DNA from: Propioniciclava coleopterorum
Lineage (GTDB): Bacteria > Actinomycetota > Actinomycetes > Propionibacteriales > Propionibacteriaceae
Direction: 5' to 3'
DNA length: 64,000 nt
Assembly (NCBI RefSeq): GCF_011393335.1
Contig: NZ_CP049865.1
Location: 2,622,722 to 2,686,721 of the forward strand
In this document: one piece after another, positions 5,619-7,457 of the stretch
How positions within the stretch are numbered: the stretch's first letter is position 1
How the letters are laid out: each line of letters opens with the position of its first letter
The notes under the pieces: generated by a model
The model's input: only the letters and a program-made list of their open reading frames with translations
The model's database searches: none
Told to the model about the DNA's origin: nothing
Position numbers and translations under genes: made by a program

Positions 5619-6308
5619 TCAGCCGGGGGAGCCGGAGTCGAGGCGGTCGGGGGCCAGCAGCGTGACGCGCGCGCCGGAGACCGCGATCAGGCGCTCGCGC
5701 TCCAGCCGGGCCAGCGCCCGGCTCAGCGACTCGGGCGTGGTCCCCAGGTAGGCGGCGACGTCGCGCTTGGCCCACGGGAACTCCACCCACGGGCCGCCCG
5801 GGCCCGGCGTGGCGGGCAGGTCGAGCAGGTAGGCGGACAGGCGCTCGGCGACGTCGACCGTGGCCAGCGCCAGGCGGCGCTCGGCGTCGGCCAGGCGCCG
5901 GCTCTGGACGCGGAGCAGGCCCAGGGCGAGTTCGGGGTGCACCGTGAGGGCCCGCCGCAGCCCGGCGCGGTCGAACGCGCACATCTCGGCGTCGGCGAGC
6001 ACCTCGATGTGGTCGTCGGGGGCCTCGCCGGTGAAGAACGCGTGCTCGCCCACGACGTCGCCGGGCCCCGCGACGCGCAGCAGCCGGCGGCGTCCTGAGG
6101 TGTCGATCCGCTCGACGCGCAGGCGTCCGGTGTGGACGACGAACAGCCCGGCCGGCGGGTCGCCGGCGCGCTGCAGCACCGTCCCGCGGCGCAACCGGCG
6201 CGGCATCGCGAGGGCGCCCAGGGCGTCCTGCAGGGCGGGGTCGAGCTGCGCGAACGCCGGCACCCTGCGGACGCACGCGTGACCCGCGGCGTCGTTCGAG
6301 GTGGCCAT
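5619..6308 (-). CDS. Crp/Fnr family transcriptional regulator
   Basis: A 229-residue regulator with an N-terminal cyclic-nucleotide-binding-like beta-roll (GTVLQRAGDPPAGLFVVHTGRLRV, residues about 45-70), a dimer helix (VQSRRLADAERRLAL) and a C-terminal winged helix. The recognition helix TPESLSRALARLE carries E-x-x-S-R, the arrangement that lets FNR-type proteins read TTGAT half-sites. Only two cysteines are visible, so a classic four-Cys iron-sulfur cluster is not evident and the signal is unknown. The ATG at 6308 was preferred to an upstream TTG at 6356 that would run through the operator. It is divergent from the DUF6448 operon, with an FNR-like site between them, so it probably controls that operon. 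Confidence 0.85.
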   Translation of the reverse strand: MATSNDAAGHACVRRVPAFAQLDPALQDALGALAMPRRLRRGTVLQRAGDPPAGLFVVHTGRLRVERIDTSGRRRLLRVAGPGDVVGEHAFFTGEAPDDHIEVLADAEMCAFDRAGLRRALTVHPELALGLLRVQSRRLADAERRLALATVDVAERLSAYLLDLPATPGPGGPWVEFPWAKRDVAAYLGTTPESLSRALARLERERLIAVSGARVTLLAPDRLDSGSPG

Positions 6309-6340: not shown

Positions 6341-6384
6341 CCTTGATCGACGTCAAGGCGCCGCCCGCCGGCCCGACCTAGCGT
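6341..6384 (+). promoter_or_regulatory. FNR-like operator and -10 of the DUF6448 operon
   Basis: CCTTGA-N6-TCAAGG at 6341-6358 is a perfect inverted repeat. Its core TTGAT-CGAC-GTCAA differs from the FNR consensus TTGAT-N4-ATCAA at one position. A TAGCGT box at 6379-6384 would give a transcription start near 6391. The palindrome centre (6349.5) then lies at -41.5, the class II activator position for FNR/CRP proteins. The adjacent regulator has the matching E-x-x-S-R helix. Confidence 0.7.
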
Positions 6385-6418: not shown

Positions 6419-7033
6419 ATGTTCCACCTGATCAGCGCCCTGTCGAAGCTCCTGCCCGCCGCCCGCGCGCACTGCGACACCGAGGGCGGCCCGGTCGTCA
6501 CCGACGGCCGCCGCTCGCTGTCCGACGGCGACCTGGACCACGCCCTGAAGTGGATCCCCGCCGACGCGGAGCCCGAACTGCGCGACGTGTTCGCCGACGC
6601 CATCGCGGTGCGCGCGATGGCCGCCCAGGCGCAGCGCGTGGCGGACCGGCTGTTCCTGGAGACCCTGGTGCGGCTGCACCGGGCCGGCGAGGGCGTGGCG
6701 TTCACCGGCATCGAGCGGGGAGCGGTGACGCTGCCGCCGGAGGTGGTCGCCGCGGACGAGGCGCTGGTCAGCGGCGACATCGTGCCGCTGCGCGAACTCG
6801 TCCCGCCCGAGCGCCGCGACGAGCTCGGCCGTCGGTTCGCCGCGGCGCGGGCGCTGCGCGGCTACGACCTGTCCGACGTGGCGGCCGGGCGCGCGTACGT
6901 CGCCGCCTACGTGGACTTCGTGCACTACGCCGAGGGCCACGAGCACGCCCACGAGCACGCGGCGCACGAGCATGCGCACGACCACGCGGGCCACGACGCG
7001 GACGCGCACCCCGAGCCGGCCCATGCGTCCTGA
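6419..7033 (+). CDS. DUF6448 protein with NiSOD-like N-terminal propeptide and His-rich tail
   Basis: A 204-residue protein. Residues 18-27 (HCDTEGGPVV), the segment LVRLHRAGEGVAFTGIE near 83-99, and AAGRAYVAAYVDFVHYAEG near the end match DUF6448, whose function is unknown. The first 17 residues (MFHLISALSKLLPAARA) are not a membrane signal peptide. They resemble the short propeptide of nickel superoxide dismutase, and removal after Ala17 would expose His18-Cys19-Asp20. The second hook Cys of NiSOD (position 6 of the mature form) is Gly here and the Tyr at position 9 is Val, so it is not an orthodox NiSOD. The last ~35 residues hold about a dozen His. The next gene, an S26 peptidase, overlaps it by 11 nt. 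An FNR-like site lies upstream. Metal binding is inferred. Confidence 0.75.
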   Translation: MFHLISALSKLLPAARAHCDTEGGPVVTDGRRSLSDGDLDHALKWIPADAEPELRDVFADAIAVRAMAAQAQRVADRLFLETLVRLHRAGEGVAFTGIERGAVTLPPEVVAADEALVSGDIVPLRELVPPERRDELGRRFAAARALRGYDLSDVAAGRAYVAAYVDFVHYAEGHEHAHEHAAHEHAHDHAGHDADAHPEPAHAS

Positions 7034-7457
7034 GGGTCGGAGCCGACGCCCGGGCTGGCTGCCGCTGGCCCGGGTCGAGGGCGCCTCGATGCTGCCCACG
7101 CTGCGTCCCGGGGACGTCGTCGCGACGCTGCCCGCGCTGGGACGCGTCCGGCGCGGCGAGGTGGTGCTGCTGCGGCGCGGCGGCGTCCTGCTGGTCAAGC
7201 GCGTGGCGGCCGGCCCCGGCGACCTGGTCGAGATGACCGCCGGACGCCTGCGCGTCCTGCCCGGCGGCCACGACGCCGACTCGGCGTCCGGCCCGGGCGC
7301 GCGCTGGGCGGTGCCGCCGGGGAGCTACTTCGTGGTCGGCGACGCCGCCGCCGCGTCCTCGGACTCGCGGAGCTGGCCCGATCCCTTCGTGGCGCGCGCC
7401 GACATCCTCGGACGCGTCCGGCGGCGGTTCTCCGGGGTGGGCACCGGCGTGCGTTGA
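7023..7457 (+). CDS. S26 family peptidase, SodX-like
   Basis: A compact 144-residue signal-peptidase-like serine protease. The catalytic Ser is in VEGASMLPTLRPGD (Ser22) and the general-base Lys in LLVKRVAAGPGD (Lys59). The C-terminal box YFVVGDAAAASSDSRSWP corresponds to box E of type I signal peptidases. There is no clear transmembrane anchor, as in the soluble NiSOD maturation proteases (SodX). It starts with ATG inside the end of the DUF6448 gene, an 11-nt overlap that implies coupled translation. The most economical reading is that it trims the 17-residue propeptide of its neighbour to create a His-Cys-Asp N-terminus. That pairing is inference; the peptidase fold is clear. Confidence 0.82.
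   Translation: MRPEGRSRRPGWLPLARVEGASMLPTLRPGDVVATLPALGRVRRGEVVLLRRGGVLLVKRVAAGPGDLVEMTAGRLRVLPGGHDADSASGPGARWAVPPGSYFVVGDAAAASSDSRSWPDPFVARADILGRVRRRFSGVGTGVR

Follow-up and report, generated by a model that had tools for sequence, protein, structure and literature searches.

A stretch of 64,000 nucleotides from Propioniciclava coleopterorum (hereafter the window) carries what is probably a self-contained inducible cassette, comprising a regulator, a DUF6448 protein and a dedicated S26 peptidase that would expose an N-terminal His-Cys-Asp metal site, in convergence with NiSOD and SodX. NiSOD and SodX are the standard case of this kind, in which an S26-type peptidase frees the N-terminal His-Cys-Asp metal site of a cytoplasmic protein. 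The window pair appears to work in the same way, with cleavage and metal binding predicted, but it passes the membership test of neither NiSOD nor SodX. The gene order, its linkage, the sequence conservation, the promoter anatomy and the matching of leaders with membrane anchors are shown below. If the reading is true, this would be a second S26-exposed His-Cys-Asp metal site, carried by an unrelated fold and governed by a switch of its own, and there are sibling loci at which the whole pair is exported. The cassette gives the DUF6448 family a candidate function and suggests a hitherto unstudied type of metal protein.

In the route that we propose, a Crp/Fnr-type factor would bind a palindrome in front of the DUF6448 gene and activate transcription, as the promoter anatomy implies. 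The DUF6448 protein would be made in the cytoplasm with an amphipathic leader of 17-20 residues, and the soluble S26 peptidase would cut after [A/V]xA (Ala17 here) and expose His-Cys-Asp, as suggested by the linkage, the site consensus and the leader/anchor matching. The freed amine, the His1 imidazole, the Cys2 thiolate and perhaps Asp3 could then bind a transition metal, possibly with the aid of residues that do not vary in the helical domain (candidates are His70, Arg71 and Glu74), and the His-rich tail may feed or buffer this metal.

Layout of the locus and its promoter

The DUF6448 gene (start ATG 6419, stop TGA 7031-7033) is followed on the same strand by the S26 gene (ATG 7023, stop 7455-7457), with an overlap of 11 bases (Table 1). 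As described in the first-pass annotation, the former encodes a DUF6448 protein (159.5 bits against PF20046, for a cut-off of 27) with a 17-residue leader ending at Ala17; the leader reads MFHLISALSKLLPAARA and is followed by HCDTEGGPV, HCD beginning at precursor residue 18. In the open frame, ATG 6419 is preceded by just three codons, none of them a start codon, therefore the 17-residue leader is real. It had been called non-hydrophobic; according to our tabulation of leaders, it is rather moderately hydrophobic and amphipathic. The tail, credited with about a dozen His, has 11 past mature residue 155. The overlapping peptidase indeed retains the reported Ser22 and Lys59, and both residues are invariant among 8 aligned rows of linked S26, so the dyad of signal peptidase I is present.

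Table 1. Positions in the window of the cassette and its parts.
Feature	Position	Strand	Basis
DUF6448 precursor, 204 aa	6419..7033	+	PF20046 159.5 bits
Leader, 17 residues, amphipathic, ends A-R-A, predicted cleavage after Ala17	6419..6469	+	[A/V]xA before HCD at 10/10 distinct linked family loci
N-terminal hook H1-C2-D3-T-E-G-G7-P8 of the predicted mature protein	6470..6493	+	H1, C2, D3, G7, P8 in 39/39 hooks
Helical domain, two repeats (about mature residues 7-75 and 89-156)	6488..6937	+	hhalign of halves; AlphaFold2
His-rich C-terminal tail, 11 His	6935..7030	+	Tail His count
Soluble S26 peptidase, 144 aa; Ser22 (7086-7088), Lys59 (7197-7199)	7023..7457	+	PF10502 70.7 bits; TIGR02227 62.2 bits
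Crp/Fnr-family regulator gene, divergent from DUF6448	5619..6308	-	Pfam cNMP_binding 63.1 bits, HTH_Crp_2 57.3 bits
Operator TTGATCGACGTCAA, core of palindrome CCTTGATCGACGTCAAGG	6343..6356		TTG-N8-CAA at 10/10 distinct S26-linked family loci
Predicted -10 element TAGCGT, 22 bases past the operator	6379..6384	+	TANNNT at that spacing at 10/10 family loci

The Crp/Fnr gene, the operator and the class II type promoter were absent from the first-pass annotation. At each of the ten distinct loci with a linked S26, nine of them short-leader and one exported, a TTG-N8-CAA palindrome precedes DUF6448, and the sequence TTGAYNNNNRTCAA occurs at a single place in the 3.67-Mb genome, which is the DUF6448 promoter. 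Of 41 upstream regions, 11 contain TTGA-N6-TCAA, a count that takes in the duplicate L034 and a misplaced L042, against 0.2 expected (first-order shuffles; maximum 3 in 300). The spacing was checked on 15 chosen loci (10 of the family, L102, L104, L090, L096 and L091): TANNNT stands exactly 22 bases past the operator at 10/10 family loci and at the Bacillota loci L102, L104 and L090. In these regions the chance of TANNNT at one position is about 0.005, but the loci are related. L096 has an operator without a -10 at 22 bases and L091 has no operator; L033 and L038 carry one further TTG-N8-CAA each, without a -10. Given the 22-base spacing, the centre of the operator falls at -41.5 from the predicted start, as in a class II Crp/Fnr-activated promoter. 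The box of L096 (2867-2880), on a contig of a viral collection, is a perfect TTGAT-N4-ATCAA upstream of an exported DUF6448.

Because the operator reaches TTG 6356, where the open reading frame of the regulator opens, ATG 6306-6308 is its likelier start. Eight of the 10 distinct loci have a Crp/Fnr gene near DUF6448 and S26, on varying sides and about 2.5 kb off in L036; none was found for L042, and L037 ends at a contig edge. FNR-type sites in general resemble the DUF6448 operator. So do the nitrogen-oxide-response motifs of HcpR (wyTTGACnnnnGTCAArw) and DNR (CTTGATnnnnATCAAG), as given in the accessible part of PMC1274295. From these likenesses, the signal could be oxygen or NO.

The hook, the domain and the possible function

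PF20046 begins at G7 of the hook (residue 24), and HCD lies outside the Pfam match. Yet all 24 rows found by PF20046 alone (L033-L056) have HCD ahead of G7, hence this motif is more than chance. H1, C2, D3, G7 and P8 are invariant in 39/39 hooks tabulated, counts that, like the 36/36 given below, lean on the choice of the 39 mature sequences by their HCD pattern and on one search pattern that also contained HCD. L089, L092 and L097 were left out of the hook table and of the alignment behind the 36/36, and a Marinobacter nauticus plasmid match, which starts only at query residue 24, was left out of the DUF6448 rows; L056 (pieces L031 and L032) is a truncated sequence, and L095 and L097 are one locus. 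At position 6 of the 39 hooks, Asp was found in 33, Glu in 3 and Asn, Gln and Gly in one each, the Gly in the window only. The second Cys of NiSOD is therefore missing, as had been claimed (Cys6 in 0/39, Cys2 in 39/39), and the Gly given for it is peculiar to the window copy, its relatives having mostly Asp. That the window copy differs here from nearly all relatives speaks against the cassette. The Tyr9 of NiSOD, also reported as lost, is indeed absent from the window hook.

The domain (window 6488-6937) was duplicated internally in tandem and matched no known structure: hhalign pairs its two halves as repeats (96.9%, E 1.5e-10), and phmmer found no relative of known structure (best E 0.22). 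AlphaFold2, run with seven sequences, gave an all-helical model (pLDDT 86.7, pTM 0.80). His70, Arg71, Glu74, Gly75, Gly80 and Arg141 are invariant in 36/36 DUF6448 sequences.

A large subgroup of DUF6448 (L040, L043, L045-L048, L050-L055 and L095) begins M/V-P-P-HCD without a leader, or MAP-HCD in L050, and in 12 of its 13 members His replaces Glu at position 155. In these 13 distinct members of the MPP type, HCD is retained at residue 4 although there is neither a leader nor a linked S26, so that an exposed His1 may not be needed family-wide.

Most likely, the DUF6448 protein is metal-dependent and serves in low-oxygen or nitrosative stress, which is the weakest step of our proposal. Nitrosative or low-oxygen genes near some plasmid copies were counted in its favor. 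On a Pelobacter plasmid, DUF6448 follows hcp, ric and a flavorubredoxin NO reductase; on a T. osmophilus plasmid it clusters with a Crp/Fnr gene, two ric and three Dps-type genes; it lies beside or near hemerythrin genes on a S. meliloti plasmid and with a divergent Crp/Fnr gene on a Peptoclostridium plasmid. L094, L090 and L087 are plasmid copies in nitric-oxide or low-oxygen clusters of this kind (hcp, ric, flavorubredoxin, hemerythrin, Crp/Fnr). No nitrosative genes were found at the plasmid loci of Citrobacter (L088), Shewanella (L089), Marinobacter (L092), Aerococcus (L102) and T. halophilus (L104), nor did any appear next to the DUF6448 and S26 genes of the window.

The same cassette and cleavage could also yield a metal buffer, chaperone or sequestering protein instead of an enzyme, as with DUF4198 and DUF6702, and we regard this as a serious possibility, although short of an even one. 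According to the accessible part of PMC12537917, the proteins of these two families bind Ni (Kd 18 nM and 5.6 pM) with weak or no activity. A Citrobacter plasmid (L103, 4914-6283) has DUF6448 directly before silE, and the nickel/cobalt efflux pair rcnRA lies about 2.7 kb upstream, with an insertion sequence between. Moreover, the tails of the 10 S26-linked family members hold 6-14 His; those of the 13 MPP-type members have only 1-6, which speaks against a buffering role, and the invariance of His70, Arg71, Glu74 and Gly75 suggests more than a sink. In the same source, as far as it was accessible, DUF4198, DUF6702 and the anglerases use the N-terminal His left by leader removal as a metal ligand, as we propose for DUF6448; theirs arise from signal peptides (signal strapping) on a beta-sandwich, whereas DUF6448 is predicted to be all-helical with His-Cys-Asp. 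The name DUF6448 does not occur in the main text of PMC12537917, as far as that text was available, nor in the literature searched. Among the matches listed for SodX, N-terminal His, the HCD motif and S26 propeptidases there was no such system, and a search on S. meliloti gave an off-subject match only.

Leaders and peptidases across genomes

In the cassette as proposed, the leader would be cut in the cytoplasm. Conceivably it is instead a degenerate Sec signal, with export of the protein and the S26 acting as an accessory signal peptidase, which we consider unlikely. Leaders were tabulated for nine distinct short-leader loci, 13 of about 20 exported DUF6448 and 9/30 NiSOD. Mean hydropathy overlaps (0.96-2.15 in short leaders, 1.29-3.39 in exported ones), which is in line with a Sec signal and speaks against the cassette. 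Three short leaders (L033, L037, L038) have an uncharged run of 8 residues, and exported relatives share the xxA|HCD type of junction, with A or V at -3 in 12 of the 13 tabulated. However, short leaders are charged mid-way and lack a long h-region: their longest run free of K, R, E, D, H, N and Q is 3-8 residues, against 11-20 in the exported leaders, and their helical moment is 1.08-1.89 against 0.14-0.93. All ten distinct linked members of the family read [A/V]xA ahead of HCD and have Pro at position -5 or -6; the nine NiSOD leaders also end in [A/V]xA, with the proline at -7.

The peptidases argue further against export at the short-leader loci. On inspection by eye, membrane segments are lacking in the S26 that accompany short leaders, and neither the window S26 nor that of the other soluble family loci has an N-terminal membrane anchor, whereas an anchor is present at L041, L102 and L104, where the DUF6448 leader resembles a real signal. 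L041 belongs to the bacterial family of the window; L102 (Aerococcus urinaeequi pT4302) and L104 (Tetragenococcus halophilus pTHF) are Bacillota plasmids, in which the gene following DUF6448 is annotated as signal peptidase I. Leader type and anchor type therefore change together, soluble with short and anchored with exported, and the loci offer a natural series for the possible passage from a membrane signal peptidase to a soluble propeptidase. By eye, the DUF6448 proteins of the two Bacillota plasmids look surface-anchored, with a LysM-like C-terminus in L104 (3902-4735) and a C-terminal membrane segment in L102 (3917-4660).

In a scan of the bacterial family of the window, DUF6448 was found at 13 places in 12 of 198 genomes, and at 11 of these an S26 gene lies directly downstream: at ten short-leader places (nine distinct, since the identical L033 and L034 make one entry in distinct counts) and at the export-leader locus L041. 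Thus every short-leader DUF6448 has an adjacent S26 (10/10 places), all within this one family. The two remaining places are its MPP-HCD genes, L040 and L043, beside which there is no S26, and a search of neighbourhoods found none at 14 MPP-start rows. The survey proposed in the first-pass annotation, of short propeptides versus Sec signals for co-occurrence with S26 peptidases, hence came out in its favor. As to another of its touchstones, a conserved N-terminus before HCD, outside the one family the short leader gives way to Sec-type signals or an MPP start; HCD itself is kept across leader types. Most exported DUF6448 loci examined have no adjacent S26, which speaks against the cassette; the exceptions are just L041, L102 and L104.

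For absence, phmmer with the window S26 as query was replaced by a profile, since it detected at most 7/30 NiSOD loci. The profile found SodX at 30/30 NiSOD loci and S26 at the 11 linked rows, a recovery that is by construction for the 30 SodX and the 9/11 linked S26 from which it was made. Its informative results are the later matches at L102 and L104, which are outside the profile, and the 30 other DUF6448 rows (15 MPP-type or truncated, 15 exported) where it found no S26, some of these stretches being short or cut by a contig end.

With a second profile, built on 8 linked soluble S26, we searched 197 genomes of the family, scoring at most 20 candidates per genome. All ten matches of 112-218 bits adjoin DUF6448. 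A partial second copy of the DUF6448-type S26 (G148:C60:6968-7201) scored 95 bits; its 7.2-kb contig already carries a pair, and the copy lies close to the contig end. The rest scored at most 75 bits and were taken, by score alone, as ordinary signal peptidases. In eight genomes of the same genus that lack DUF6448, S26 matches occurred at 1-3 places per genome, and none of these genomes reached the threshold of the second profile. In one genome (G089), a DUF6448/S26 pair is split across two frames at ambiguous bases.

We consider it very improbable that the S26 serves another substrate, or that the linkage is an inherited neighbourhood only. Since soluble pairs turned up in a single bacterial family, the linked loci are relatives and do not count as independent cases. 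Among 293 genomes sampled from the order, 396 from the phylum and 394 from the class, DUF6448 was present in 9, 9 and 3, some of them shared, and no further short-leader DUF6448 emerged. An inherited neighbourhood is nevertheless at odds with the patchy distribution of DUF6448 in the family, with a Crp gene that switches side while the DUF6448/S26 pair stays, with strong matches to the soluble S26 type that were seen only with DUF6448, and with the recurrence of the pairing on two Bacillota plasmids.

Comparison with NiSOD and SodX

Like NiSOD (SodN, PF09055) and SodX (TIGR02754), the cassette has a short leader ending in [A/V]xA, an N-terminal His-Cys-Asp with Gly at 7 and an adjacent soluble S26 peptidase with Ser/Lys; the cognate peptidase and the N-terminal hook of NiSOD are named in the accessible parts of PMC3919588 and PMC8346466. 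Homology with NiSOD was rejected on Pfam, hhalign and Foldseek results, and a diverged true NiSOD is barely credible: H1, C2, D3 and G7 are common to NiSOD hooks, but Cys6 and Tyr9 are absent, a Pfam scan of the window protein to E 10 returned DUF6448 and a weak HAMP match only, without the Sod_Ni that the first-pass annotation had proposed to look for, hhalign gave 0.6-0.8% against an alignment of 30 NiSOD, and Foldseek of the DUF6448 model against the PDB had no match at E <= 0.001 and no NiSOD among the best 50 of 79. The genome of the window itself has no Sod_Ni match; by the same search, 103/148 genomes of the class sample match.

DUF6448 thus differs from NiSOD in its domain and in its fold, which is predicted to be helical with two repeats, and has Asp/Glu in place of Cys6 in most members (Gly in the window) and no Tyr9. 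The cassette further differs from NiSOD/SodX in its Crp/Fnr-type promoter and in an S26 gene that follows on the same strand and overlaps. Where other DUF6448 (PF20046) have a Sec signal or an MPP start, the window subgroup pairs a short leader with a dedicated S26; its tail is also richer in His than that of the MPP type.

The identification of the protease as SodX was rejected. The window S26 matches PF10502 with 70.7 bits, in a match beginning at profile position 26 of 168, and it scores 62.2 bits against TIGR02227 (cut-off 47) and 33.4 bits against TIGR02754, below the curated cut-off of 63.25. Among the 10 distinct family loci, six linked S26 were scanned: all six pass TIGR02227 (54.0-100.5 bits) and remain at 17.5-34.4 bits for TIGR02754, the lowest being L042, whose input was cut before the Ser. 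Unlike SodX, the linked protease therefore scores as signal peptidase I (TIGR02227), yet its soluble forms lack the N-terminal membrane anchor, and in the family searched strong soluble-S26 matches adjoin DUF6448. From the earlier claim of a NiSOD/SodX-like route on an unrelated domain, the linkage and the non-NiSOD domain stand; the SodX label does not survive the curated score, and the cleavage is a prediction.

In an S26 tree without SodX, the soluble forms make one clade (99/98) with the membrane-anchored L041 beside them (97/94), and L102 and L104 are placed elsewhere with weak support; a single origin of all DUF6448-linked S26 is neither supported nor rejected (AU p 0.146 for all linked rows as one clade). 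We tentatively suggest, as a reading that we hold to be rather doubtful, that DUF6448 proteins form a new class of metalloenzymes acting in nitrosative or low-oxygen stress, with an exposed His-Cys-Asp-x-x-Asp-Gly-Pro hook as active site on a two-repeat helical fold, and that in one lineage the cytoplasmic NiSOD/SodX route was re-invented from signal-peptidase stock when protein and peptidase jointly lost their membrane parts. A common origin of SodX and the DUF6448-linked propeptidases is possible, and such a joint loss could even be where SodX came from. In the S26 tree that includes it, SodX, tentatively placed and with a long branch, falls within the soluble peptidases linked to DUF6448.
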